Shown here: one piece after another, positions 1-37,907 of the stretch | Numbering within the stretch: the first letter of the stretch is position 1 | Layout of the letters: each line of letters opens with the position of its first letter | Source of the DNA: Bacteroidota bacterium | GTDB taxonomy: Bacteria > Bacteroidota > Bacteroidia > Bacteroidales > Prolixibacteraceae | Direction: 5' to 3' | Assembly: GCA_023251455.1 (NCBI GenBank) | Contig: JAHEYT010000026.1 | Location: forward strand, 62,001 to 126,000 | Length of the DNA: 64,000 nucleotides | The notes under the pieces: model-generated | What the model saw: the letters and a program-made list of their open reading frames with translations, nothing else | Database searches by the model: none | Told to the model about the DNA's origin: nothing | Program-made: the position numbers and the translations under genes

Positions 1-597
1 ATATTTATTTGGGCCGAAATCTGGTCCATCGAACCAGGCAATAACTTCGGTCACATTGCCCAACAATCCTGATTCGTACCATTCTTTGATCAGGCGAATT
101 CCGTTGGTGGCATGTCCCTGGTTTGCCATTTGGGTGATTACGTTGTAATGTTTGGCTGCTTTTTGAAGTGTTCGCAATTGCCAGATGTTGTGTGCCAATG
201 GTTTTTCAACAATCACGTGTTTGCCAAGCTGCATAGCTGCCATGGCTGCCGGAAAGTGCGAATGGTCAGGAGTACAGACCATAACGGCATCAATTTCTTT
301 GTGCATTTGGTCGAACATCACACGGTAATCTTTGAACCTTTTGGCGTTTGGCATTACCCGAAAAGCTTCAGCTGCTCGTTTGTCGTCAACATCGCACAAG
401 GCAACAATATTCTCGTTCCATTTGGGGTCTTTCTGGTTAATCAGCTTGCTCCAGTTTGCCATTCCTTGTCCACCAACGCCTATAACCGCAATATTTAGGC
501 GGTTCGATGGAGAACAACTCATCAGATTGGGGATAAAAAATGCACCGGCAGAAAATACAGATGCCGATTTGAGAAAATCTCTTCTGGTAGGTTTCAT
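1..597 (-). CDS. Gfo/Idh/MocA-family oxidoreductase, N-terminal part (runs off window start)
   Basis: Reading the minus strand from an ATG at 597 gives an open frame to the window edge (199 codons). It begins with a twin-arginine motif (MKPTRRDFLK), a hydrophobic stretch and a lipobox-like LMSC, so the protein is probably exported by Tat and perhaps lipidated. The Rossmann motif follows (IAVIGVGGQG, about residues 35-44), then ALCDVDD and the EKPLAHN segment typical of the family. Such exported Bacteroidota proteins are NAD(P)-dependent oxidoreductases or sugar-acting enzymes; the substrate cannot be told. The C-terminal substrate domain is outside the window. A second, separate member lies at 20976-22301. 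Confidence 0.9.
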   Translation of the reverse strand, partial: MKPTRRDFLKSASVFSAGAFFIPNLMSCSPSNRLNIAVIGVGGQGMANWSKLINQKDPKWNENIVALCDVDDKRAAEAFRVMPNAKRFKDYRVMFDQMHKEIDAVMVCTPDHSHFPAAMAAMQLGKHVIVEKPLAHNIWQLRTLQKAAKHYNVITQMANQGHATNGIRLIKEWYESGLLGNVTEVIAWFDGPDFGPNKY

Positions 598-700
598 AGT
601 AGGTTTAGTATTTAGGTTTATGCGATCTAAAAGTAGAAAATTTATCCAGACGTAATCTAATCCCATGCCGAAAAAGCACCAGAACAGAACAGTTGATTAT

Positions 701-1777
701 TTATTTTTTTGTAAAGTGTTTCGAATCGCCCCATTCACCATAACCAATTTCACAACCAGCTAGCTCGATACGGGCTTCCAAACAATTTCTACAGAGTTCT
801 GCATCTTCGTCCAGACAAGGTTTGTCTTCGTACAATTGGTATTCTTTGCGGTATTCGCAAGGTGTGAGGTTGGGCATAATGATATTGGCACCAATGGTCA
901 GCGCCTTTTCACGGCCCGCAGGATCGATTGCCTGCAATGCAGTTGCTGCTGCAATGTTGATGTCGGGCATAAGTAAACGCAAGGTTGCTACCATTTTCAA
1001 CGCAAGGTCAAAGCGCTCCTGTTTGGTTTTCAAGCTGCTCCTGAAATCGTAAAGCGGAGTGTCTTCATGCTCAATGTAAGGTCCCATTCCAACCATATCA
1101 ACATCAGTCTGTTTCAGAAACAAAAGGTCATTGGCCAAATCTTGAGTAGTTTGAAACGGAAGTCCGATCATCACGCCTGTTCCAACCTGAAATCCTGCTG
1201 TTTTCAAATCTTGCAATGCCTGAAGGCGTCGATCGAAACTATGAAAATCATTCTTCGGATGAATTTTACGATACAATTCAGGATTAGAACTTTCAATTCG
1301 GAGCAAATACCGGTGCGCACCGCTTTCCTGCCATTGACGGTAGGTTTCACTTGATTGTTCACCGCAAGAAAGTGTAATTCCCAATTCGTTGTTCGATAGA
1401 TGTTTGATTTTCCGGAGTAGTAAATCAACCCGGTTCACAAATGCAGGCGATGACAACTCTCCGGATTGCAACACGACCGAGCCAAACCTATTTTCCCAGG
1501 CAAATCGACAAGCTTCCAGAATTTCGTCATCCGAAGCTTCGTAGCGTACTACTTTTTCGTTGCTTTTCCGGATTCCGCAATAAAGGCAGTCTTTGGCACA
1601 AATATTCGAGAATTCGACCAACCCACGGAAATAAACCTTGTTGCCAACCGTTTGCAGTTTAACCGACTGGGCTCTTTGAAAGAGCTGCTGCCGCTCATCT
1701 CCTTCGGCCGAAAGTAAAGTCACCAGGTCGTCGTGCGAAAAATCGGTCTGAAGTAATATGTCCTGAAAGTTCTTCAT
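701..1777 (-). CDS. hydE: [FeFe] hydrogenase H-cluster maturase HydE (radical SAM)
   Basis: Radical SAM enzyme that acts in building the dithiomethylamine-bridged 2Fe subcluster of [FeFe] hydrogenase. The CX3CX2C cluster motif is visible (CAKDCLYC, about residues 60-67), followed by YCGIR. Near the C terminus three cysteines are spaced CX7CX2C (CLDEDAELCRNC), the spacing of the accessory cluster of known HydE proteins. The frame continues upstream to 1810, but the ATG at 1777 gives the normal N terminus and the upstream part is a 7-bp-periodic repeat. No hydF, hydG or hydrogenase gene lies in the window. Related enzymes such as PylB lack the C-terminal triad, so HydE is preferred. Confidence 0.85.
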   Translation of the reverse strand: MKNFQDILLQTDFSHDDLVTLLSAEGDERQQLFQRAQSVKLQTVGNKVYFRGLVEFSNICAKDCLYCGIRKSNEKVVRYEASDDEILEACRFAWENRFGSVVLQSGELSSPAFVNRVDLLLRKIKHLSNNELGITLSCGEQSSETYRQWQESGAHRYLLRIESSNPELYRKIHPKNDFHSFDRRLQALQDLKTAGFQVGTGVMIGLPFQTTQDLANDLLFLKQTDVDMVGMGPYIEHEDTPLYDFRSSLKTKQERFDLALKMVATLRLLMPDINIAAATALQAIDPAGREKALTIGANIIMPNLTPCEYRKEYQLYEDKPCLDEDAELCRNCLEARIELAGCEIGYGEWGDSKHFTKK

Positions 1778-1804
1778 CAGTGCGAAGATACAAAATATTG
1801 GATT

Positions 1805-1832
1805 GAGCACAGAGCAAAGGGCATGGAGTCAG
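1805..1832. repeat. Array of four degenerate 7-bp units (GRGCANA type)
   Basis: Four consecutive 7-bp units beginning GAGCACA and GAGCAAA, then two diverged units. The array lies 28 nt upstream of the hydE start. Arrays of the same family occur at 17165-17192 (inverted) and 25753-25780, also four units long. Confidence 0.6.
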
Positions 1833-1876
1833 AGAAACTAACAAATCAATAAAAATATTAAATAGCCTGATGTATT

Positions 1877-1892
1877 GTTAGAACAATCTAAC
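1877..1892. promoter_or_regulatory. Inverted-repeat operator in front of the marR gene
   Basis: GTTAGA-4 nt-TCTAAC is a perfect 6-bp inverted repeat ending 12 nt before the marR start. It adjoins a TATATTTG (1893-1900) resembling the Bacteroidota -7 element TANNTTTG. A near-identical site with the same 4-nt spacer lies before the ATPase gene (2337-2352). It is probably the binding site of the MarR protein, which would then be autoregulated; that is inference. Confidence 0.65.
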
Positions 1893-1904
1893 TATATTTG
1901 TCGC

Positions 1905-2321
1905 ATGGATAAACTCGTTGAGATAATTGCTAAACTATCGCTTGAAATTGGCCGGATGGAAGAATCAGCCAAAGAACAGTTCAATTTTAACGAGTTGACA
2001 CTTACACAGATGAATTACCTGGAGACAATTAACAACCTTCATAACCCGAACCTGACAGAGCTGGCAGCCGAGATGAATTTAACCAAACCAACGGTTAAAG
2101 TGGCTATTGACAAGTTGATAGAAAAGGATTTTATTTACCGGGTGAGGTCGGATGATGATCGACGGAGTGCACACTTGCACCTCACTGTCAAAGGAAAGGT
2201 GATCAATCATATGCACGATTTTGCGCACAAGCAAATGGCCGAGTTGATTACCGGTAAACTGGATCGTGCGGAAGTTGCCCTGATGGAAATGTTGTTTGAA
2301 AAAGTTTTTCAGAAGGCTTAA
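1905..2321 (+). CDS. MarR-family transcriptional regulator
   Basis: A 138-residue winged-helix protein of normal MarR size. The recognition region is NLTELAAEMNLTKPTVKVAI (about residues 48-67), followed by the wing signature RSDDDRRSAHLHLTVKG. An in-frame TTG lies at 1875, but the ATG at 1905 matches the family and leaves the palindrome at 1877-1892 upstream. It is followed at 46 nt by a P-type ATPase gene preceded by the same operator-like palindrome, so the regulator probably controls itself and that transporter in response to an ion or small ligand. The ligand is not evident. Confidence 0.88.
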   Translation: MDKLVEIIAKLSLEIGRMEESAKEQFNFNELTLTQMNYLETINNLHNPNLTELAAEMNLTKPTVKVAIDKLIEKDFIYRVRSDDDRRSAHLHLTVKGKVINHMHDFAHKQMAELITGKLDRAEVALMEMLFEKVFQKA

Positions 2322-2336
2322 AAATTTACCTACATA

Positions 2337-2352
2337 GTTAGAATCCTCTAAT
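2337..2352. promoter_or_regulatory. Second MarR-type operator, before the P-type ATPase gene
   Basis: GTTAGA-4 nt-TCTAAT, with the same half-sites and spacing as 1877-1892 and one mismatch. It sits 15 nt upstream of the ATPase start, which would let the MarR protein block an internal promoter or elongation. Confidence 0.55.
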
Positions 2353-2367
2353 CAAATCCCCAAGATC

Positions 2368-4917
2368 ATGTCAATTGATTTAAAATCGGAGAAATTCCGC
2401 GGATTAAGCGAAGAAACAGTAAAAGAGAAAATAAAGAATGAAGGCTTCAATGAATTGCCATCGTCGAAACCTAAAAATTTTCTGGCCTTGGCCTGGGGAG
2501 TTGTTCAGGAACCCATGTTTCTGCTTTTGGTTGCTTGCGGAACCTTGTATCTGATTTTAGGTGATATTCAGGAAGGATTAATGCTTCTTGGATTTGTGTT
2601 TGTGATTATGGGCATCGAATTTTATCAGGAGAAAAAAACTGAAAAAGCGCTGGATGCCTTGAAAGATTTGGCAAGTCCGCGTGCTTTGGTGATACGCGAA
2701 GGCATTGAAAAGCGAATTGCTGGCCGCGATGTAGTAACCGACGATTTGATTATTCTTCAAGAAGGCGACCGTGTTCCGGCCGATGCCACGGTTTTGTATT
2801 CGGTGAATTTGATGGCCGATGAATCACTATTGACCGGCGAATCGGTTTCAGTGCGTAAATCAGAATGGAACGGAACTGACCAAAATGTGCAACCTGGTGG
2901 CGACGATCTGCCTTTTGTGTATTCAGGATCGATGATTGTGCAGGGAAATGGAATTGTAAAGGTGACGGCAACCGCATCGAATACCGAAATTGGAAAAATC
3001 GGGAAAGCGCTTGATTCGGTGGTGGAAGAACCTACCAAATTAAAACGTGAAATGGCCGTGCTGGTTAAACGACTGGCTATTATTGGGATTTTACTTTGTG
3101 TGGTAGTCATTCTGGTTTACACTTTAACCCGGGGCAATTTGCTGAATGGATTTCTGGCTGGAATTACATTGGCAATGGCTATGTTACCCGAGGAATTTCC
3201 GGTGGTATTGACCGTTTTTATGGCTTTGGGCGCATGGCGGATATCGAAGAAAAACGTTCTGACACGCAAGCCATCAGCCGTTGAAACATTGGGCTCTGCA
3301 ACAGTTCTTTGCACCGACAAAACAGGTACACTGACTCAGAATAAAATGACGGTTACCCGTTTATACAATGGATCCGATTTCTTTAAAGTAAATAAGTGTA
3401 CCAAATTTCCGGAGGAGTTTCACGAAATTATCGAGTACGGTATTTTATCGAGCCAAACTAATCCGTTCGATCCGATGGAACGCGCCATTACCAACATGGG
3501 CGAGTTGTACCTGAAAAACACCGATCACATTCATATCGACTGGCAAATGGTGAAAGAATATCCGTTGTCGAAAGACTTGCTAGCCATGTCACGTGTTTTT
3601 TCCAATCACGATAAATTCAGGAAAACCATTGCTACCAAAGGTGCTCCGGAAGCCATCTTTGATTTATGCCATCTTTCGGACGACAAAAAAACAAAATATG
3701 GGGAAGCGGTTGCTGAACTGGCTTCTCAAGGCTTGCGGGTGCTTGGAGTTGCCCGTGCAATTGTCGAAAACGGCAGCCTGCCAGCTATTCAGCACGATTT
3801 TGATTTTGAATTTATTGGTCTGATCGCTTTGTCGGATCCGATTCGTGAAGCGGTTCCGGCTGCCGTAAGCGAATGTTATCAGGCTGGCATACGTGTGATC
3901 ATGATCACGGGCGACTATCCGGTAACTGCGATGAATATTGCCCGAGAAATCGGATTGAAGAATCCTGATGTGTCAATCAGCGGACCTGAACTTCAGGAGA
4001 TGACTGAAGAGGAATTGGCTGCGCAGATAAAGGATGTGAATGTGTTTGCTCGTGTGATTCCGGAGCAGAAACTAAAGATTGTGAATGCACTGAAACGAAA
4101 CGGTGAAATCGTGGCTATGACTGGCGATGGGGTGAATGATGCTCCGGCACTAAAGGCCTCCAATATTGGGATTGCCATGGGTGAAAAGGGAACAGATGTG
4201 GCTCGCGAGGCTTCGTCGCTGGTGCTGATGGACGATAATTTCGCCTCGATTGTGAACGCTGTAAAAATGGGCCGACGTATTTTCGACAACCTGCAAAAAG
4301 CACTGGGTTATATTTTTGCCATCCACGTTCCTATTGCCGGATTGTCGCTTATTCCGGTCTTTTTTGCCGACTGGCCATTGTTGCTTTGGCCGGTGCATAT
4401 TGTGTTTCTTGAGTTGATTATTGACCCTGCCTGCTCCATTATTTTTGAAGCCGAACAGGAAGAGAAAAACGTGATGAACCGTCCTCCGAAAGACATCAAT
4501 GAACCATTTTTTGGCGCTAAAAAGATATGGCTGAGCTGTTCTCAGGGAATCGGGATTCTGGTCATGGTTTTTGCGGTGTACTTCTTCGGCCTGCGAATGA
4601 ATTATTCTGAACAGGAAGTTCGTGCATTGGCTTTTACCACGCTGATTGCCGCCAACATTGCTGTCATCCTGTCGAACCGCTCGTGGACACGCAATATTTT
4701 CCAGATTTTAATGACGTCCAATAAAACGGTCAAATACGTTGTTGGCGGGGCAACATTTTTCCTGATTTTGGTGCTGAATGTTCCTTTTCTGCTGAATCTG
4801 TTTCAGTTCGAGAAGATCAGTCTGACCGAATCGATCGTTTGCGTTGTCCTTGGTTTTTCAAGTATTGTTTGGTTCGAGATGTACAAGGTGATTACGAATT
4901 GGGGAAGGGTTAACTGA
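2368..4917 (+). CDS. Cation-translocating P-type ATPase (P2-like)
   Basis: An 849-residue inner-membrane pump of normal P2A length. Visible parts in order: N-terminal cation-ATPase domain, two membrane spans, actuator motif LLTGES (about residue 155), third and fourth spans with PEEFP (about 274), phosphorylation motif CTDKTGTLTQNKM (Asp near 317), nucleotide-binding domain with TKGAPEAIFDLC, hinge MTGDGVNDAPALKASNIGIAMG, then about six C-terminal spans. The family moves Ca2+ or other divalent ions using ATP. PEEFP replaces the PEGLP of typical Ca2+ pumps, so ion specificity is uncertain. The neighbouring MarR gene and shared operator suggest ligand-responsive expression. Confidence 0.9.
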   Translation: MSIDLKSEKFRGLSEETVKEKIKNEGFNELPSSKPKNFLALAWGVVQEPMFLLLVACGTLYLILGDIQEGLMLLGFVFVIMGIEFYQEKKTEKALDALKDLASPRALVIREGIEKRIAGRDVVTDDLIILQEGDRVPADATVLYSVNLMADESLLTGESVSVRKSEWNGTDQNVQPGGDDLPFVYSGSMIVQGNGIVKVTATASNTEIGKIGKALDSVVEEPTKLKREMAVLVKRLAIIGILLCVVVILVYTLTRGNLLNGFLAGITLAMAMLPEEFPVVLTVFMALGAWRISKKNVLTRKPSAVETLGSATVLCTDKTGTLTQNKMTVTRLYNGSDFFKVNKCTKFPEEFHEIIEYGILSSQTNPFDPMERAITNMGELYLKNTDHIHIDWQMVKEYPLSKDLLAMSRVFSNHDKFRKTIATKGAPEAIFDLCHLSDDKKTKYGEAVAELASQGLRVLGVARAIVENGSLPAIQHDFDFEFIGLIALSDPIREAVPAAVSECYQAGIRVIMITGDYPVTAMNIAREIGLKNPDVSISGPELQEMTEEELAAQIKDVNVFARVIPEQKLKIVNALKRNGEIVAMTGDGVNDAPALKASNIGIAMGEKGTDVAREASSLVLMDDNFASIVNAVKMGRRIFDNLQKALGYIFAIHVPIAGLSLIPVFFADWPLLLWPVHIVFLELIIDPACSIIFEAEQEEKNVMNRPPKDINEPFFGAKKIWLSCSQGIGILVMVFAVYFFGLRMNYSEQEVRALAFTTLIAANIAVILSNRSWTRNIFQILMTSNKTVKYVVGGATFFLILVLNVPFLLNLFQFEKISLTESIVCVVLGFSSIVWFEMYKVITNWGRVN

Positions 4918-14687: not shown

Positions 14688-15371
14688 CTATTTCCTTACA
14701 TCGCTGAGAATTTTCCCATCTTCCAGCGTAATTACCCGCCTCGCTTTGTTGACTACTCTTTGATCGTGAGTACTAAACACAAACGTGATATTTTCTTTTC
14801 TATTGAGTTCTTCCATGATTTCCAGAAGGTTTTCGGTCGATTTACTGTCGAGGTTGGCAGTCGGTTCGTCGGCCAGCACGAATTTAGGCTTCGATGCCAG
14901 AGCACGTGCTACGGCAACGCGTTGCTGTTGTCCCCCTGAAAGTTTATTGGGGCGGCTGTTTTCGCGGCCTTCCAACCCAACGGCTTTTAGCAAACTCATG
15001 GTTCGCGATTCGCGTTCTTCCTTCGGACGGTTTTGCAGATGCATAATGAATTCCACATTTTCTTTGGCAGTGAGCACCGGAATCAAATTGTATGCCTGAA
15101 ATACAAAACCAATATTCTGCAGTCTAAAATCAATAAGCTGCGATGACGACAATTTACTGATATCGGTTCCGCCAATCGAAATCTGGCCTGAAGTAGGCTG
15201 ATCCAAACCGCCCAACATATTCAGAAAAGTAGTTTTGCCTGATCCGGATGGCCCGACAATGGCTGTAAACTCGCCTTCTTCAATATTCAGGTCCACGCCA
15301 TTCAGCGCATAAACCTTCACTTCCGAATCGTTGTATATTTTTTCGAGATTGTGTACTTCAATGACGTTCAT
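14688..15371 (-). CDS. ABC transporter ATP-binding protein (LolD/MacB type)
   Basis: A 227-residue ATPase of the LolD/MacB/FtsE class. Walker A is GPSGSGKTT (about residue 39), the Q-loop region is NIGFVFQAYNLIPVLT, the signature is LSGGQQQRVAVARAL, Walker B is FVLADEPTANLD, and the switch His is in STHDQR. It would pair with the two FtsX-like permeases encoded upstream on the same strand. It is separated from them by a four-helix-bundle gene and its flanking repeats, apparently an insertion that did not destroy the operon. Confidence 0.93.
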   Translation of the reverse strand: MNVIEVHNLEKIYNDSEVKVYALNGVDLNIEEGEFTAIVGPSGSGKTTFLNMLGGLDQPTSGQISIGGTDISKLSSSQLIDFRLQNIGFVFQAYNLIPVLTAKENVEFIMHLQNRPKEERESRTMSLLKAVGLEGRENSRPNKLSGGQQQRVAVARALASKPKFVLADEPTANLDSKSTENLLEIMEELNRKENITFVFSTHDQRVVNKARRVITLEDGKILSDVRK

Positions 15372-15381
15372 ATTGTTGTAG

Positions 15382-15418
15382 TTTCAAGTTTCAAATTTCA
15401 AGTTCCAAGTATGGGTGC
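15382..15418. repeat. Left inverted end of four-helix-bundle cassette: four TTYCARR units plus tail
   Basis: Four 7-bp units at 15382-15409 followed by TATGGGTGC. The reverse complement of 15856-15890 aligns to this stretch with 24 of 28 unit positions identical and a related GGTGC tail, so the two form inverted ends around the gene at 15427-15816. The array also sits just upstream of the ATPase start (15371). Confidence 0.7.
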
Positions 15419-15426
15419 GAAGTTTT

Positions 15427-15816
15427 TTACTTGTATTTATTGCCTTTCAATTCCGAATCTTTTAAATAATTGATAAAACCTTTCAGCATTTTACAGCATT
15501 CCAGCGTTTTTTCGTTAGCTGCATCAAACTCTTCCTGTGTAATGTATTCATTGTCGATTGCCCGATAGAGTTGGGAACGAGTTTCTCCGCAAGAACCTTT
15601 TGAAATAGATAAAAACTGAATAAATTCTTTATTCCCATCGCGTTCAAAACCTTCAGCAATGTTGTCCATGATTGAACCTGACGAGCTTTTGATTTGTCCG
15701 ACAAGCTTAAAATCCCTTGAAAATGAATCTTTCAACGTTAGTTTATGAATCTCTTTGCAAAGTTCTCTGGCCAACTGCCATACTTTCAAATCTTCAAACC
15801 GTTCAACTTTAGACAT
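15427..15816 (-). CDS. Four-helix-bundle protein (S23 / 23S rRNA intervening-sequence type)
   Basis: A 129-residue protein of the TIGR02436 family: FEDLKVWQLARELCKEIHKL at the N terminus, then GQIKSSSGSIMDNIAEGFER (about 42-61), EFIQFLSISKGSCGETRSQL and a C-terminal helix. Members are encoded in intervening sequences of 23S rRNA in some bacteria, and a relative (Avd) is an accessory subunit of diversity-generating retroelements. The biochemical role of free-standing copies is unknown. Here it sits between genes of an ABC transporter and is bounded by inverted 7-bp-periodic repeats, which makes it look like a small mobile cassette. No reverse transcriptase or template repeat is visible nearby. 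Confidence 0.85.
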   Translation of the reverse strand: MSKVERFEDLKVWQLARELCKEIHKLTLKDSFSRDFKLVGQIKSSSGSIMDNIAEGFERDGNKEFIQFLSISKGSCGETRSQLYRAIDNEYITQEEFDAANEKTLECCKMLKGFINYLKDSELKGNKYK

Positions 15817-15855
15817 ATCATTAATTTTTGTGTTTAAACGTAAATTTTCAACAAA

Positions 15856-15890
15856 GCACCAACTTGGAATTTGAAACCTGAAACTTGGAA
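15856..15890. repeat. Right inverted end of four-helix-bundle cassette
   Basis: On the minus strand this reads as four TTYCARR-type units (15863-15890) followed by a GGTGC tail (15856-15860), an inverted match to 15382-15418. It lies between the four-helix-bundle gene and the 3' end of the permease gene (15899). Confidence 0.7.
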
Positions 15891-15898
15891 CTTGTTTG

Positions 15899-17119
15899 TC
15901 ACATATCTATTCGGATTGCTTCTGCAGGTTTGTATTTCAGTGCTTTTCGGGCCGGATAGATGGATGCGATAAGTCCGGTTACAAAAACGAGAAGCACAAT
16001 AACACTCACCATTTCAAATTCAATGACCGGAAATACATGCGAACTGTAACCCATATCTTCAAGTCCTTCGGCATAAAACGAAAGGTTGATTCCAGTTTTC
16101 ATGGTTGCCAGCGTAACAGCTATCCCGAGCATAATTCCGAAAAAACCGCCGGTAAGTGTAAGTAAAACGGTTTCGAGCATCAGCATCCAGAAAACCCGGA
16201 ATTTGCTCATGCCAACCGCCATCAGCATCCCGATTTCTTTTACGCGTTCCATCACGGCCATCAGCATGGTGTTGACGATACCAAATCCCAGCGACAACAA
16301 AATGATGGCGATGAAAAAATAAATATAAATATTGCCATATTCGTTGAGGATGCCAAGTTCGGGAGTCATTTGTTTCCAGTTCTGAACCAGTAGATTAGGG
16401 TATTTTTCGGCCAACGTTTTCGCGCTGGAATCCAGTTCTCCATGATCTTTCAGGTGAACAACCAATTCGTGTGTAGTGCTTTCGTCGAGTTGTACAAACC
16501 GGGCCAGATCGGTTTTCAAAACAAATACATTCATTTCTTCAAACATGCCATTGCCCACGCTGTAAATTCCGCAAACCCTGAAAGCCTCGTTGGTCAAATG
16601 TCCCTGCGAATCCTGTAAGGTCATCACCAACTTCGAATGGAGCTTCACTTTCAGCTTTTCGGCCAGTTTTTTCCCGATCAGGATCGGATTGCGCTTAACC
16701 CCTTCGAAGTATTTCCCGTCGGGAATTTTGGTGTACAGATTGGTTACGGTCTTTTCCTTTTCAGGATCAATACCGAGAATTTTTACACCGGTTCCGGTTT
16801 CTGATGAGGCGATCATGGCTTGGGCCACCATTCGGGGACTCACACCACTTACAAAATTTTCTTTGGCAATGTCTTCAGCCAATTTAGCACTTTCAGGAAT
16901 GAAATTTTTGAGCTCGAAGTTCTCTCCAAATTCAGGTTGGTGAATTTGGATGTGCGAAACTTCAGTTTCCACACCGGCTTCGAGGCGCTGGTTAACCCAG
17001 CCCTTATAAAACGTGGCGGTGAAAACCCCGGCAAGCATCCCGATGGTGATGGCCGAAATAATTACTCCCGAGCGCACCCGGTTCCGCCAAATATTTTTCC
17101 ATGCAATTGATGAGATCAT
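15899..17119 (-). CDS. ABC transporter permease, FtsX/LolC-E family (second)
   Basis: A 406-residue permease with one N-terminal span (IISAITIGMLAGVFTATF, about 19-36), a large periplasmic MacB-type domain and three C-terminal spans (about 280-400) with the FtsX signature (MERVKEIGMLMAVGMSKFRV). This is the layout of LolC/LolE and MacB, which move lipoproteins or other substrates out of the inner membrane rather than across it. It is a homologue of the neighbouring permease, so the pair probably forms a heterodimer. Its start codon is followed upstream by a 28-nt 7-bp-periodic array. Confidence 0.88.
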   Translation of the reverse strand: MISSIAWKNIWRNRVRSGVIISAITIGMLAGVFTATFYKGWVNQRLEAGVETEVSHIQIHQPEFGENFELKNFIPESAKLAEDIAKENFVSGVSPRMVAQAMIASSETGTGVKILGIDPEKEKTVTNLYTKIPDGKYFEGVKRNPILIGKKLAEKLKVKLHSKLVMTLQDSQGHLTNEAFRVCGIYSVGNGMFEEMNVFVLKTDLARFVQLDESTTHELVVHLKDHGELDSSAKTLAEKYPNLLVQNWKQMTPELGILNEYGNIYIYFFIAIILLSLGFGIVNTMLMAVMERVKEIGMLMAVGMSKFRVFWMLMLETVLLTLTGGFFGIMLGIAVTLATMKTGINLSFYAEGLEDMGYSSHVFPVIEFEMVSVIVLLVFVTGLIASIYPARKALKYKPAEAIRIDM

Positions 17120-17121
17120 AG

Positions 17122-17149
17122 TTTCAAATTTCAGGTTCCAAATTTCAAG
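17122..17149. repeat. Array of four TTYCARR-type 7-bp units directly at a start codon
   Basis: Four units begin 2 nt upstream of the permease ATG (17119). Same family and orientation as 15382-15409 and 18418-18445. Confidence 0.65.
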
Positions 17150-17164
17150 TTGTGGGTTTATCCC

Positions 17165-17192
17165 TATGCTCTATGCACTTTGCCCCATGCCC
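17165..17192. repeat. Array of four GRGCANA-type 7-bp units (inverted)
   Basis: On the minus strand the four units read GGGCATG, GGGCAAA, GTGCATA and GAGCATA, the same family as 1805-1832 and 25753-25780. The array abuts the stop codon of the upstream permease gene and lies 15 nt from the TTYCARR array. Confidence 0.6.
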
Positions 17193-18415
17193 TAAGTTCC
17201 GTGTAACGCTTTAATTTCCTTGATTCGTAGCGAAGCAATCATCGGGTAAATGCCGATAAGAAGCGTCAGTACGAACACACTAATGGCTTGCTGCCAAAAG
17301 ACTTCAGGAGCGGTAGAGAAAAACATGTAGGGTTCGAATCCAAAGTCTTCCATCAGTTTGGCTGTGTCTCCGGTTAACGGAATTGGATTTTTTGCCTGAA
17401 TAAGCAGTAAAGGCAGGCTAACAGCTATTCCTGAAAAAATTCCAAGCAGTCCAATGAAAATCGTTTCGAAAAACAGGATGACCGACAGTTTGCTTTTTTG
17501 CATTCCGATGGAAATCATCACTCCAAATTCGCGACGTCGTTCGGCAATCATCATCATGATGGTTCCAAAAATCCCAAAGGCAATTACAATATACAGAATG
17601 GCCTTCATAATGACACCGCCAGCGCGGTCGCTTTCTATTTGCTGAACCACTTCAGGCTGCATTTCTTCCCAACTCATCACTGAAAAAGGTGATCGGATTT
17701 CAGATTTCAAGGTTTTCAGAGTGCGTTTCATGGCATCGTTGTCGGCCACGTTTACAACCAACGAGGTCAGTTTGTTTTCGGCGCCCAGAAAATTTTGGCA
17801 GGTTTTCAGTTCCATGTAAATAATCGACTTATTCAGCTCGGGAGACACATGTTTGATGATGCCGCGAATCGGAAATTTACCGGCGGCGCTCACTCCGTGA
17901 TACCCTTGGGTGATGATAACCAGTGTGTCGTTTAGCGCGAGTTTCAGGTATTTCGCCAGTCCATCACCGATCACCACGCCATCGTCAGTGGCTTGCAGGT
18001 AGTTGCCCGAAACGATTTTATCGGCAATGCCAGTAAGCTGAGTCTCAATGTCGGGAACAATCCCGAAGATGGCCGATCCGCGTGTCAATTCGCCCGCCGA
18101 TGCCAGTCCGAACGATTCGAGCCGCGGAATCACAAAATCAATCTCCGGATGGTTTTTGATTTGATCAACCAGCGCCTGATCGTAATCGAACGAGTTGTTG
18201 ATGCTCTTGTTCTCCCAGTATTCTTCGTGGTGGACCTGCATGTAGCCGGAATAGAATTTTACGACGATCTCCACCATCTTGTCGTACGAACCTTCCTGCA
18301 TCGAAGTCATATATGCCGACAGCAGCACACCAAAAAAGATGGATGCGACGGTAATCAGCGTCCGGCGCTTGTTCCGCCAAAGATTTCGCCAGGCCAGTTT
18401 GATGTTTGTGTACAT
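17192..18415 (-). CDS. ABC transporter permease, FtsX/LolC-E family (first)
   Basis: A 407-residue protein with the same architecture as its neighbour: an N-terminal span (TLITVASIFFGVLLSAYM), a periplasmic MacB-like core domain and three C-terminal spans containing IAERRREFGVMISIGMQKSK. Together with the second permease and the LolD-like ATPase it makes a complete type VII-like ABC exporter. The upstream LolA-like gene and the downstream barrel gene point to lipoprotein or lipid transfer to the outer membrane. The substrate is not identified. Confidence 0.88.
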   Translation of the reverse strand: MYTNIKLAWRNLWRNKRRTLITVASIFFGVLLSAYMTSMQEGSYDKMVEIVVKFYSGYMQVHHEEYWENKSINNSFDYDQALVDQIKNHPEIDFVIPRLESFGLASAGELTRGSAIFGIVPDIETQLTGIADKIVSGNYLQATDDGVVIGDGLAKYLKLALNDTLVIITQGYHGVSAAGKFPIRGIIKHVSPELNKSIIYMELKTCQNFLGAENKLTSLVVNVADNDAMKRTLKTLKSEIRSPFSVMSWEEMQPEVVQQIESDRAGGVIMKAILYIVIAFGIFGTIMMMIAERRREFGVMISIGMQKSKLSVILFFETIFIGLLGIFSGIAVSLPLLLIQAKNPIPLTGDTAKLMEDFGFEPYMFFSTAPEVFWQQAISVFVLTLLIGIYPMIASLRIKEIKALHGT

Positions 18416-18417
18416 AG

Positions 18418-18445
18418 TTTCAAGTTCCAGATTTCAAGTTCCAAG
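18418..18445. repeat. Array of four TTYCARR-type 7-bp units directly at a start codon
   Basis: Begins 2 nt upstream of the permease ATG (18415) and is followed by TATGAGT, close to the TATGGGT tail of the copy at 15382-15418. Confidence 0.65.
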
Positions 18446-18480
18446 TATGAGTAATGTCTAATGATGAGACTTATCCTTTG

Positions 18481-33939: not shown

Positions 33940-35625
33940 ATGACAACTTTAGATTATTTTCAGATATTCCTGTTTATCGTTTTGGTAATTGCCTTGACAC
34001 CAGTATTAGGGACATACATGTATAAGGTATTTACTGGTGAAAAACATATCATGCATCCGGTTTTTGGATGGCTCGAAAAACTCAGCTATAAAATCATAAA
34101 AGTAAACCCTAGCGAGGAGTCAAACTGGAAATCATATACTTTTGGTTTATTGCTTTTTAATCTGGTTGGGATCGTCTTTTTATTCCTGATCCAGATGATT
34201 CAGGCACAGTTGCCGCTGAATCCGGCGAATCTTCCCAATGTCTCGTGGCACTCGGCATTGAATACAGCCATCAGTTTTGTGACCAACACCAATTGGCAGG
34301 GATACGCCGGAGAAACTACGCTGAGCTATTTTGTGCAAATGATCGGACTGACGGTGCAGAACTTCGTCAGCGCTGCCACCGGAATAGCCGTGATTGTAGT
34401 GCTCGTTCGTGGATTGTCGCGCAAAACGACCGACAAATTGGGTAATTTCTGGGTCGATCTAACCCGGGCAACTTTATATATCCTTTTGCCTCTTTCTATC
34501 CTGTTCGCAGTAGTTTTGGTAGGGCAGGGTGTTGTTCAGAATTTCAATTCGTACGAAACGGTTCAGACTTTGCAGGGCGGACAACAGGTTTTGCCAATGG
34601 GGCCCGCCGCTTCGCAAATTGCAATTAAACAGATTGGTACCAATGGTGGAGGTTTTTTTAATGCCAACAGTGCGCATCCGTTCGAAAACCCGACACCTTT
34701 CAGCAATTTTCTCGAAATGCTGGCCATATTCCTGATTTCAGGAGGACTGACCTATACCTACGGTAAAATGGTAGGCTCGACCCGCCAGGGGTGGACCATT
34801 TTTATGGTGATGATGTTTTTGTTTGTGGCTGGTCTGGGAATTTCGTTGTATAGCGAATACGCGACCAATCCTGTATTTGGGAACATGGCCGCCATGGAAG
34901 GCAAAGAAACCCGTTTCGGTATTACCAATAGTGTATTGTTTTCGGTTGTCACCACGGATGCCTCGTGCGGAGCTGTGAATGCCATGCACGACAGTCTTTC
35001 ACCGCTTTCAGGAATGGTACCCATGATTAACATGTTGCTGGGTGAAGTGATTTTTGGAGGTGTTGGTGCCGGACTATACGGAATGGTGGTATTCATCATC
35101 CTCACCGTTTTTATTGCCGGATTGATGGTTGGCCGCACTCCGGAATACCTTGGCAAAAAGATCGGAGCTTTCGAGGTACAAATGGCGATTATTGCCAACC
35201 TGTCCACCAGCTTTGCGATTTTGCTTTTTACAGCCTGGGCTTCGGTTAGCAGTTATGGCCTATCGAGTCTGAATAACTCCGGACCGCATGGGTTTTCCGA
35301 AATATTTTATGCTTTCACTTCGGCGGCTGGAAACAATGGCAGCGCATTCGCCGGACTCAATGCAAACACAATGTTCTACAATCTTTCGCTTGGTTTGGTT
35401 ATGCTCATTGGCCGCTTTGGGGTTATCATTCCGATGTTGGCAATTGCCGGAAGTTTGGCCGGAAAGAACATTACCCCGACTTCGGCGGGTACTTTCAGAA
35501 CCGACAACTGGCTTTTTGCGGTCCTGTTAATTGCGGTTATCCTGATCGTTGGCGGGCTGACCTATTTCCCTGCCTTATCGCTGGGGCCTATTGTTGAGCA
35601 TTTATTATTGAATTTGAAAATTTAG
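33940..35625 (+). CDS. kdpA: Potassium-transporting ATPase subunit KdpA
   Basis: The 561-residue K+ channel-like subunit of the high-affinity KdpFABC pump, with about ten membrane spans. Selectivity-filter loops are visible: TNTNWQGYAGE (about residue 115), TNGGGFFNANSAHPFENP (about 235), TDASCGAVNAMHDS (about 340) and SAAGNNGSAFAGL (about 465). It imports K+ under potassium limitation. It is the first large gene of the operon and is followed directly by a hairpin plus repeat block before kdpB. Confidence 0.97.
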   Translation: MTTLDYFQIFLFIVLVIALTPVLGTYMYKVFTGEKHIMHPVFGWLEKLSYKIIKVNPSEESNWKSYTFGLLLFNLVGIVFLFLIQMIQAQLPLNPANLPNVSWHSALNTAISFVTNTNWQGYAGETTLSYFVQMIGLTVQNFVSAATGIAVIVVLVRGLSRKTTDKLGNFWVDLTRATLYILLPLSILFAVVLVGQGVVQNFNSYETVQTLQGGQQVLPMGPAASQIAIKQIGTNGGGFFNANSAHPFENPTPFSNFLEMLAIFLISGGLTYTYGKMVGSTRQGWTIFMVMMFLFVAGLGISLYSEYATNPVFGNMAAMEGKETRFGITNSVLFSVVTTDASCGAVNAMHDSLSPLSGMVPMINMLLGEVIFGGVGAGLYGMVVFIILTVFIAGLMVGRTPEYLGKKIGAFEVQMAIIANLSTSFAILLFTAWASVSSYGLSSLNNSGPHGFSEIFYAFTSAAGNNGSAFAGLNANTMFYNLSLGLVMLIGRFGVIIPMLAIAGSLAGKNITPTSAGTFRTDNWLFAVLLIAVILIVGGLTYFPALSLGPIVEHLLLNLKI

Positions 35626-35720
35626 CAATTTGAAGATTTGAAAATTATTCATTTTCAAATTAACACATCTTCAAATTGTATTTCATTTTCAAATTTTCAA
35701 ATCAACACATTTTCAAATTA
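35626..35720. repeat. Composite intergenic element 1: hairpin plus 8-bp-periodic 39-nt repeat
   Basis: Begins at the base after the kdpA stop. Arms CAATTTGAAGAT (35626-35637) and ATCTTCAAATTG (35667-35678) form a hairpin. The stretch 35682-35720 has an 8-bp period (ATTTTCAA units with one ATCAACAC unit) and is identical over 39 nt to 37869-37907. It ends 7 nt before the kdpB ATG. Confidence 0.8.
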
Positions 35721-35727
35721 GATTTCA

Positions 35728-37812
35728 ATGAGTACACGACAAATAAATAGCCTGTTCAATCAGAAGATATTGATTCAGGCAACAAAAGATAGTTTTACCA
35801 AATTAAATCCGGTTATTCTGATTAAAAATCCGGTCATATTTATGGTTGGAATTGGCTCGGTTTTAACAACGATAACGGTAATCAGCGGACTTTTTTCAGG
35901 TCATTTTTCAGGATTTAACCTGAATATTGCCATCTGGTTGTGGTTTACGGTACTGTTTGCCAATTTTTCGGAAGCTATTGCCGAAGGCCGGGGAAAGGCT
36001 CAGGCCGATAGCTTACGGAAAAGTCGGGTCCAAACCATGGCACGCAGGTTGGTTGGCGATAAAGTCGAAACGATTGCTGCTCCTGAATTACGGAAAGGCG
36101 ATGTGGTAATTTGCGATGCGGGTGATGTGATTCCGTCGGATGGTGAAGTGGTTGAAGGTATTGCCAGTGTCGACGAATCGGCCATTACGGGAGAATCAGC
36201 ACCGGTGATCCGGGAAAGTGGCGGCGATCGCTCGGCTGTAACTGGTGGAACTAAAGTGATCAGCGACCGGATTTTGGTTAAGATTACCTCCGAACCGGGC
36301 GATAACTTTATCGACCGCATGATTGCCCTGGTTGAAGGTGCCAAACGGCAGAAAACACCCAACGAAATTGCGCTGTCAATTCTGCTGTCAGGCTTGTCTA
36401 TCATCTTTTTACTGGCGGTGGTTACGCTTCCGGCTTTCTTCGGATATAGTTTGACTGCCTCAGGATTGCCTTTGTCGCAAAACCTGACCATTCCGGTATT
36501 GATTGCTTTGCTGGTTTGCCTCATTCCGACCACCATCGGCGGTTTGCTGAGCGCCATTGGCATTAGCGGAATGGACCGGCTTTTGCAGCGAAACATCATC
36601 GCTACCAGTGGGAAAGCCATCGAAGCAGCAGGCGATGTCGATGTACTTTTGCTCGATAAAACCGGAACCATTACCTTAGGAAACCGCATGGCTACCAACT
36701 TTTTCCCTGCAGATGGGGTCAGCGAATCCGATCTGGCTCATGCAGCGCAGCTATCTTCCTTATCCGACGAAACTCCCGAAGGCCGGTCGATTGTAATTCT
36801 GGCCAAAGAAAAATTTGACTTCCGGGCTCGCGATATCCATCAGAAAAATGCGGTTTTTATTCCTTTCACAGCCCAATCGAAAATGAGCGGAGTCGATTTA
36901 ACTGATGAAACAGGTAAAGTTCATCGAATCCGGAAAGGATCGTCGGAAGCCATTCGTTCGTTTATCCTGAATGGTAACGGATTCTTCCCGAAAAAAATGG
37001 AAGAAAAAGTTGCCGAACTAGCCAGAATAGGAGCTACACCGCTGGTTGTGGCTGAGAATAATAAAGTGTTGGGAATCATTCAGCTAAAAGACATTGTGAA
37101 AGGTGGGATTAAACAACGATTTGCCCAATTGCGCAGCATGGGAATCAGAACCATCATGATTACCGGCGACAATGCGTTGACAGCCGCTGCAATTGCTGCC
37201 GAAGCCGGTGTCGACGATTTTATGGCCGAAGCCACTCCCGAAGATAAACTCCGCCGCATCCGTGCCGAGCAGGCCAATGGCCATCTGGTTGGGATGATTG
37301 GCGACGGCACAAACGATGCCCCTGCTCTGGCTCAGGCCGACATCGGTATTGCCATGAATTCGGGAACCCAGGCTGCCCGCGAAGCTGGTAATATGGTTGA
37401 TTTGGACAGCAACCCAACCAAACTGATCGAAGTGGTTGAGGTTGGCAAGCAATTGCTGATGACCCGTGGCGCACTTACTACCTTCAGTATAGCCAACGAC
37501 GTGGCCAAATATTTTGCCATAATTCCTGCTATAGCGGTATCGCTTTATGCCGGGAAAGATGGAGTTGGCCCGCTTTCAGCATTAAATGTGATGCAATTGG
37601 GGTCGCCGCAAAGCGCCATTTTGAGTGCAGTAATCTTTAATGCGTTGATCATTATTCTATTGGTTCCTCTAGCCTTAAAAGGTGTTGCCTACAGGCCTGT
37701 TTCTGCAAATACTGCCTTAATCCGAAACCTTGTTATTTATGGATTTGGAGGAATTTTGGCACCGTTTGCAGGGATCAAATTGATCGATTTGATTATTAAT
37801 TTAATGATTTGA
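35728..37812 (+). CDS. kdpB: Potassium-transporting ATPase ATP-binding subunit KdpB
   Basis: The 694-residue P-type ATPase subunit of KdpFABC. Motifs: actuator TGESAPV (about residue 154), membrane motif [15 protein letters not shown] (about 264), phosphorylation site [14 protein letters not shown] (Asp near 310), hinge [20 protein letters not shown], and the kdpB-specific C-terminal spans with [12 protein letters not shown]. It hydrolyses ATP to drive K+ from KdpA into the cell. Both flanking gaps carry the same repeat element. Confidence 0.97.
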
Positions 37813-37820
37813 AGATGAGA

Positions 37821-37907
37821 TAATTTGAAGATTTCAGGGTGTGCATTTGTCATCTTCAAATTGAATTTTTCATTTTCAAATTTTCAAATCAACACATTTT
37901 CAAATTA
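37821..37907. repeat. Composite intergenic element 2: hairpin plus 8-bp-periodic 39-nt repeat
   Basis: Between kdpB and kdpC. Arms AATTTGAAGAT (37822-37832) and ATCTTCAAATT (37852-37862) form a hairpin with a different loop from element 1. The 37869-37907 stretch is identical to 35682-35720. It ends 5 nt before the kdpC ATG. Confidence 0.8.

Follow-up and report, generated by a model that had tools for sequence, protein, structure and literature searches.

The window, that is, the whole stretch of 64,000 nucleotides of a Bacteroidota bacterium analyzed here, contains an operon of ABC-transporter genes in which a small gene of the S23 four-helix-bundle family is inserted between an FtsX/MacB-type permease gene and an ABC ATPase gene (Table 1). 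The S23 protein scored 120 bits against PF05635, for which the cut-off is 33.8, and 117 bits against TIGR02436, and its relatives in the PDB were 2gsc (E 7e-8) and 2rld (E 2e-6). The gene is co-oriented with the host operon, including the permease and ATPase genes on either side, and is enclosed by two 31-nt arms, both period-7 arrays, which are 87% complementary and lie 451 nt apart. Local alignment of the 110 nt upstream of the gene with the reverse complement of the 110 nt downstream gave a score of 48, which was reached by 0 of 1000 dinucleotide shuffles of the flanks (mean 18.5, maximum 32). The profile matches and this score confirmed the initial annotation, which had described an S23-type gene within an ABC-transporter gene set, with inverted 7-periodic arrays at both ends.

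Table 1. Features of the window locus and of three nested S23 genes (positions are those of the window unless another locus is named).
Feature	Position	Strand	Basis or remark
S23 cassette, proposed moving unit	15380..15892	-	513 nt including arms; homology with L072; absent from the orthologous spacers of L099 and L100
5' (upstream) arm, RTTYCAA heptamer array	15862..15892	-	inverted repeat of 15380-15410; period 7
3' (downstream) arm, inverted RTTYCAA array	15380..15410	-	inverted repeat and L072 breakpoint; period 7
S23 / four-helix-bundle gene, 129 aa	15427..15816	-	PF05635, TIGR02436, PDB relatives
Upstream host gene, FtsX/MacB-type permease	15899..17119	-	PF02687, PF12704
Downstream host gene, ABC transporter ATPase	14688..15371	-	PF00005; adjoins the FtsX gene in L098-L108
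First FtsX permease gene of host operon	17192..18415	-	PF02687, PF12704
Solo RTTYCAA array, next spacer of host operon	17120..17151	.	period scan
CCCTATG-type array accompanying solo array 17120-17151	17162..17194		same spacer
Solo RTTYCAA array beyond first permease gene	18416..18446	.	period scan
S23 gene nested in ORF 1058-3301(-) of L124	L124: 1480..1839	-	flank score 32
S23 gene nested in ORF 1130-3298(-) of L140	L140: 1471..1839	-	flank score 14
S23 gene nested in ORF 2-3310(-) of L149	L149: 1465..1833	-	flank score 40

PF05635 genes were found in all 23 genomes of the genus, including that of the window, with 2 to 15 each among the matches listed. The genome of the window (5.56 Mb) carries four, and by eye all of them have 7- or 8-nt arrays on both sides, in three different words; direct plus inverted array copies occur at locus L037. 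The genus sample combined 60 regions from the upper part of the listed matches, chosen by score and room on the contig, with the four loci of this genome, and yielded 69 S23 ORFs in 64 loci, 68 of them with flanks. Because many of these loci represent orthologous sites, they do not count as independent observations in such tests. Of the 68 S23 genes, 44 scored 30 or more for inverted flanks (median 32), compared with 2 among 88 other genes in these loci (median 17; Mann-Whitney U, p 1e-15), one of the two being a GxxExxY gene. At a cut of 26, inverted arms were present at 53 of 68 genes, direct arms only at 6 and neither at 9. The low scores of L002 and of the second S23 gene of L064, both kept in the counts, are due to an in-frame stop that shifted the measured flank. 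Flanks were 110 nt for S23 genes and for the baseline and 150 nt for GxxExxY and RAYT genes, so the baseline holds for 110 nt only. For this baseline, taken from 800 kb of the one-contig relative G001 with a simple ORF rule and with genes >3000 nt left out, 4 of 538 genes reached 30, none of them S23 by sequence, and the S23 gene in the sample scored 27. The difference between S23 genes and the genes of this one relative answers a check raised by the initial annotation, in that arrays are not equally frequent around unrelated genes.

The best periods among the 68 genus S23 genes (autocorrelation of at least 0.7) were 7 (34 genes), 8 (11), 9 (3) and 10 (1), and the same autocorrelation was reached by 23 of the 88 control genes, 11 of them with period 7. 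Since other elements differ in word, period and arm length, the earlier proposal of a 28-nt array as fixed end has to be abandoned. A GGTGC-like inner tail was likewise rejected as a universal mark, as it was present on only 5 of 25 arrays, one of which is the window's own arm.

The limits of the unit were revealed by comparison with a second cassette, L072, which occupies the spacer between the lpd and E1 genes, a site unrelated to that in the window. The alignment of the two cassettes extends from AGTTCC to GAAACT, exactly from 15892 to 15380, and homology ends on both sides. The ends first proposed, 15382 and 15890, were therefore near correct, each being 2 nt short of the breakpoint. For L069 and L071, two sites in one genome, the alignment ends some 10 nt or less from the outer edges of the arms, and for the remaining four cassette pairs it stops either within an arm or outside one by as much as 17 nt. 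Matches to the upstream permease gene at E <= 1e-60 occur in 11 of the 23 genus genomes, that of the window included, and the FtsX-ABC spacer was compared by eye in this genome and 10 relatives. It measures 13-14 nt and has no cassette in L099 and L100, while an S23 cassette is present in the genome of the window (L098) and in L104, where the copy has an in-frame stop. The exact coincidence of the window/L072 homology with 15892-15380, together with the orthologous spacers of 13-14 nt, indicates that the arms belong to the moving unit.

Comparison of the arms of 109 S23 genes (5886 pairs) revealed that the words follow the gene. Between different sites, arm similarity remained at 16-17, that is, at noise, below 50% S23 identity, and was 18.1 at 50-60% (n=342), 20.4 at 60-70% (n=50), 32.6 at 70-80% (n=7) and 62.7 at >=80% (n=8); in same-site pairs it rises likewise from 50% S23 identity upward. 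The arms within one element match each other with a median score of 32. Noise between different sites at low identity, combined with the match within elements, indicates that the word is inherited with the element and changes over time in both arms together. The word thus differs between elements, is common to both arms and tracks S23 identity across sites. With the homology that stops at the outer arm edges, the empty sites and the words that travel with the gene, the initial annotation is supported in part, namely in its view of the arrays as ends of a cassette that moves. As a separate observation, L067:2946-3820(-) holds two S23 genes 500 bp apart, surrounded by shared, directly oriented TTTCTCAC-type arrays, as though one cassette had been duplicated in tandem.

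Arrays of this kind are not restricted to S23 genes. The RTTYCAA pattern gave 76+94 overlapping hits across the genome of the window versus 2+6 for the reversed control, and solo arrays therefore far exceed the four S23 genes. Among 24 RTTYCAA arrays at loci L004-L033, the window's own being left out, 7 had an inverted partner within 40 nt and 17 did not. Such numbers would be expected if the arrays were independent, slippage-prone spacer repeats and the S23 and GxxExxY genes were passengers that recombine into pre-existing inverted arrays, and this explanation would also accommodate the different contents of one spacer in relatives and the element alignments that stop inside an arm. We consider it improbable, because like S23 genes keep like arms at different sites and because the window/L072 homology ends at the outer, and not at the inner, edge of both arms.

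The solo arrays announced by the initial annotation are indeed present elsewhere in the window (Table 1). Their reading as scars fits some cases, in particular the FtsX-ABC spacer of L108, in which by eye the arms are kept and most of the S23 gene is gone, while the 17 of 24 RTTYCAA arrays without a near partner may be either scars or independent insertions. Also by eye, the FtsX-ABC spacers of L101, L102, L106 and L107 contain solo arrays or gene-less inverted pairs of a different word, in addition to an RTTYCAA-type stretch; a different word is present in L105, and the 42 nt of L103 show no clear word. Spacers orthologous to the 17120-17194 region hold other words or none, and measure 13-23 nt in L100, L106 and L107. 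In the lpd-E1 spacer, inspected by eye in 19 genomes including that of the window, there are 10 S23 cassettes of two word classes, and the other 9 spacers contain gene-less word palindromes or other palindromic repeats. Both spacers behave as insertion hot spots. In sister genomes the lpd-E1 spacer was further seen to carry gene-less palindromes of the form CCGTGGG...CCCACGG (L230, L232 and L244) and C-rich palindromes (L233, L234 and L240).

The orientation of the cassettes is strongly biased. In the genus, among the S23 genes whose two neighbours were callable, the upstream gene is co-oriented with the S23 gene in 65 of 65 cases and both neighbours in 60 of 65, compared with 393 and 302, respectively, of 536 genes in G001. 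Bacteroidota-wide, the upstream gene was co-oriented in 26 of 27 loci, with no neighbour callable in 3 further loci. The rule of sense orientation is not absolute, since in the cyanobacterial plasmid loci L112, L115 and L120 (3 of 11 named plasmid loci) the S23 gene runs antisense to the two genes annotated next to it. The idea that an RNA stem is selected for on the sense strand was rejected: arm transitions comprised 54 G.U versus 81 A.C (53 loci, related loci uncollapsed, p 0.025), which is the opposite of what such selection would leave, so RNA pairing is unsupported. RNA folds pair the ends of the window cassette on both strands, and the sense fold (z -2.0) is less extreme than the antisense fold (z -4.2).

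These data bear on whether the cassette could be a MITE-like DNA element, with the arrays serving as terminal inverted repeats for an as yet unnamed transposase, RNA being irrelevant and the sense bias reflecting selection for expression. Terminal inverted repeats, a criterion for MITEs, are present in the window cassette and lie at its breakpoints; the empty sites, the absence of a G.U preference, the gene-less inverted pairs (the 7 partnered arrays among 24, and L102, L106 and L107 by eye) and possible 3-nt duplications seen by eye at the junctions (ACA at the window, TTT at L072) are also compatible with this explanation. However, known transposases require a fixed end sequence, and the words of these elements are mostly unlike below about 60% S23 identity; moreover, no target-site duplication was consistent across the FtsX-ABC and lpd-E1 spacers, and a co-oriented upstream gene at 65 of 65 loci also speaks against it. 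We regard a MITE-like origin as rather unlikely. No transposase was linked to an S23 element.

Beyond the genus, PF05635 was detected in 116 of the 148 genomes of an even draw across Bacteroidota. Among the 30 best-scoring loci listed, from which two partial genes had been dropped for length, 18 reached a flank score of 30 and 9 remained below 26. Plasmid S23 genes were represented by 23 records, of which 12 sequences were taken; 11 were counted as plasmid loci, mostly cyanobacterial, and the twelfth is an rRNA intervening sequence (IVS; L119). A score of 30 was reached by 7 of these 11 loci and 4 scored below 26; those below 30 are L111, L113, L115 and L117, and L111 has direct arrays with a score of 136. 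Plasmid S23 genes often lie within operons, for example cas6-S23-cas4 (L111 and L114) and cas10-S23-cmr3 (L118). Of one further set of five loci, all but L153 were read, and in this set the S23 gene of L154, from a Bacteroidia MAG, scored 42. We also noted an S23-like gene between tRNA genes in a Cloacimonadota MAG (L155:2344-3054), with inverted flanks that score 28.

In three further cases the S23 gene lies inside an LSU rRNA gene, and its position in the rRNA looks identical by eye in all of them: L119 (Azospirillum), L151 (an alphaproteobacterial MAG) and L152 (Endozoicomonas). With flanks measured from the ends of the tblastn matches, all three IVS examined have inverted word arms, with scores of 52, 46 and 53, respectively. 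The passages on 23S rRNA IVS with S23 in PMC4990558 (Coxiella, Leptospira) describe elements that resemble the window cassette in having one S23 ORF, a size of about 0.4-0.5 kb, a sense position in the transcription unit, terminal inverted repeats able to form a stem, and 5' heptamer repeats. The Coxiella IVS is described as being cut by RNase III and as having a terminal stem of 28 bp and, ahead of the S23 start codon, GACAGAT heptamers in tandem; the S23 family is said to have no known function (PMC4990558). The inverted word arms of all three IVS, together with the description of the Coxiella IVS, lead us to conclude that the window cassette is built on the design of the 23S IVS. The host of the window cassette, however, is a protein-coding operon rather than rRNA, and its position between FtsX and ABC ATPase genes makes it IVS-like, not an rRNA IVS. 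Furthermore, in contrast to rRNA IVS, the genus cassettes are numerous in each genome (2-15 among the matches listed), occupy many sites and have element-specific arm words. S23-type genes, termed 23S_rRNA_IVP, are also mentioned for rRNA insertions of CPR bacteria (PMC11270868).

Related arrays and genes have been described elsewhere. Heptamer arrays are reported from Beggiatoaceae, cyanobacteria and Bacteroidetes (PMC4679880), and in Xanthomonas 70-75 inverted pairs of heptamers are given (PMC4692102), where heptamer repeats are said to be generally unassociated with mobile elements. The arrays of cyanobacteria, Xanthomonas and Beggiatoaceae are like ours in being intergenic tandem heptamers, and the term S23 does not occur in the main texts of PMC4692102 and PMC4679880. 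A word search of the open-access PMC literature found no link of S23 genes outside rRNA with word arrays. In cas loci, 23S_rRNA_IVP genes are listed among the CRISPR-Cas-associated functions (PMC3936711); they lie between cas genes as in L111, L114 and L118, and what is treated there as an associated function is here read as cassette insertion.

Taken together, we propose, with a probability of roughly 60%, that the window locus is a selfish IVS-like cassette with paired inverted ends, inserted in the sense direction into an operon transcribed as mRNA. It would be defined by a single small gene together with a pair of inverted arrays whose short word mostly has 7 or 8 nt, and the cassette is probably promoterless. 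Recognition seems to rest on the pairing of both ends rather than on a fixed sequence, with each element lineage having its own word and both arms switching word together, which may occur by copying of one end from the other or by renewal at each move. In the transcript the arms may form a stem that can be cut by RNase III, as described for 23S IVS, and within this scheme such cutting would make insertion into a transcription unit tolerable; spacers, rRNA loops and protein loops are the predicted places of tolerated insertion. On the sense strand, purines make up a mean of 0.60 of the upstream arm (more than half in 37 of 53 loci, less than half in 12 of 53), and such a purine-rich 5' arm may aid the start of S23 translation. 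Of these steps, the ends of the unit, the empty sites, the coupling of arms and gene, the sense bias and the IVS design are shown by the observations above.

The S23 protein is predicted to bind the paired ends, and the enzyme that moves the cassette would act in trans or go unrecognized. PF05635 is reported to resemble Avd of diversity-generating retroelements (PMC10053308). The likeness to these retroelements does not extend to the gene neighbourhood, as no reverse transcriptase was found near the window gene, whose neighbours are the ABC transporter genes; the one RVT_1 gene of the genome is on contig C71 and the window on C67. A search for RVT_1 also found none in G001, a one-contig genome with 12 S23 genes among the matches listed, or in G021, with 15 such genes. 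A resident reverse transcriptase as required partner was rejected, because RVT_1 was not found in 7 of the 23 genus genomes, including the one-contig G001.

A second type of gene was found within similar arms. The strongest control gene, with a score of 51, is a GxxExxY gene (PF13366, PD-(D/E)XK). Among 30 GxxExxY loci sampled, 9 in which a regular expression gave no ORF were dropped, and the ORF used sits off the locus centre in L209, L220 and L225; inverted flanks of at least 30 were present in 19 of 21 genes in the genus (median 45), measured on 150-nt flanks. GxxExxY genes with inverted word arrays include L039:5667-6038(-) and loci among L196-L225, with arm words such as CACARAG and CACAGAT. 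In Bacteroidota, 70 genomes have both S23 and GxxExxY, 46 S23 only, 5 GxxExxY only and 27 neither, a co-occurrence commoner than expected (Fisher p 6e-6, uncorrected for kinship and based on hand counts that assume the same 148 genomes). As a required partner GxxExxY was rejected, being absent from 46 of the 116 S23-bearing genomes.

HUH enzymes recognize hairpins, and Y1_Tnp genes occur in all 23 genus genomes, which makes it conceivable that the Y1 (HUH) transposases of the genus move the palindromes as REP sequences. Inverted flanks of at least 30 were indeed found at 12 of 20 Y1_Tnp loci, but on inspection by eye they consist of REP-like palindromes (e.g. GGTGCAGCGCACC) and not of tandem words. 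Because the flanks differ in kind, RAYT was rejected as mover of the S23 cassettes, and an origin of the REPIN/RAYT type appears highly improbable. Like REPINs/RAYT and MITEs, the S23 cassettes are small palindromic spacer elements; unlike these, they have no conserved end sequence, carry a gene inside and have tandem-word arms.

The IVS-like cassette of the window may be one member of a class found across phyla, in which the ends are set by mutual pairing of element-specific inverted arrays that evolve in concert, which enters transcription units in sense, be they operon spacers, rRNA loops or even coding genes whose frame stays open through dual coding, carries unrelated small genes such as S23 and the GxxExxY nuclease, and leaves behind gene-less palindromes and solo arrays. 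We put this broader view forward tentatively, as somewhat short of an even chance. If true, this class would explain the 23S IVS as well as many heptamer arrays that have lacked an explanation in Bacteroidota and cyanobacteria; IVS and heptamer arrays are each a long-standing puzzle. The gathering of S23 genes, IVS and heptamer arrays into one class would make the function of S23 and its mode of movement testable in an ordinary Bacteroidota strain, and S23 genes found in operons, for instance with cas genes, would then not have to belong to the systems encoded there. Ends that are recognized by pairing while their sequence changes freely would, if confirmed, be a new principle of mobile DNA.

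Insertion also appears to reach coding sequences. In 3 of the 30 Bacteroidota-wide loci (L124, L140 and L149), the S23 gene lies within a larger ORF on the same strand that is open right through (Table 1). The ORFs of L140 and L149 have Pfam DNA-methylase domains, and that of L124 aligns with that of L140. Among 97 S23 genes, frame +2 is free of stops only in these three (mean 10.8 stops, next lowest 4), and the offset of the S23 frame relative to the host is identical in all of them. From its flank score, L140 has no clear arms. For the L124 host, the loci of 19 relatives were compared, 3 of which gave no measurable flank pair; 8 relatives with flanks 66-87% identical have a loop of 2-30 residues in place of a stretch of 149 residues, and 8 distant relatives (about 27-34%) have a loop of 8-10 residues. 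These alignments give a clear-cut empty site within a protein, and L124 is probably a case of dual coding, in which the host frame has stayed open through the S23 gene.

By its coordinates, G134 looks like a further nested S23 case. In the large ORF of L149, array-like stretches outside S23 appear by eye as repetitive peptides (LAIRHSLFA, RAASGEWR), suggesting in-frame insertion of arrays. A Bro-N gene (PF02498) at L095:1107-1934(-) has a 28-nt direct repeat on both sides. Finally, the window itself contains partly palindromic arrays of an octamer word, ATTTGAAR with its inverse, at 35611-35719 and 37809-37906; they occupy both spacers around a kdpB-like gene in a kdpABC-like operon, the genes being named by eye.
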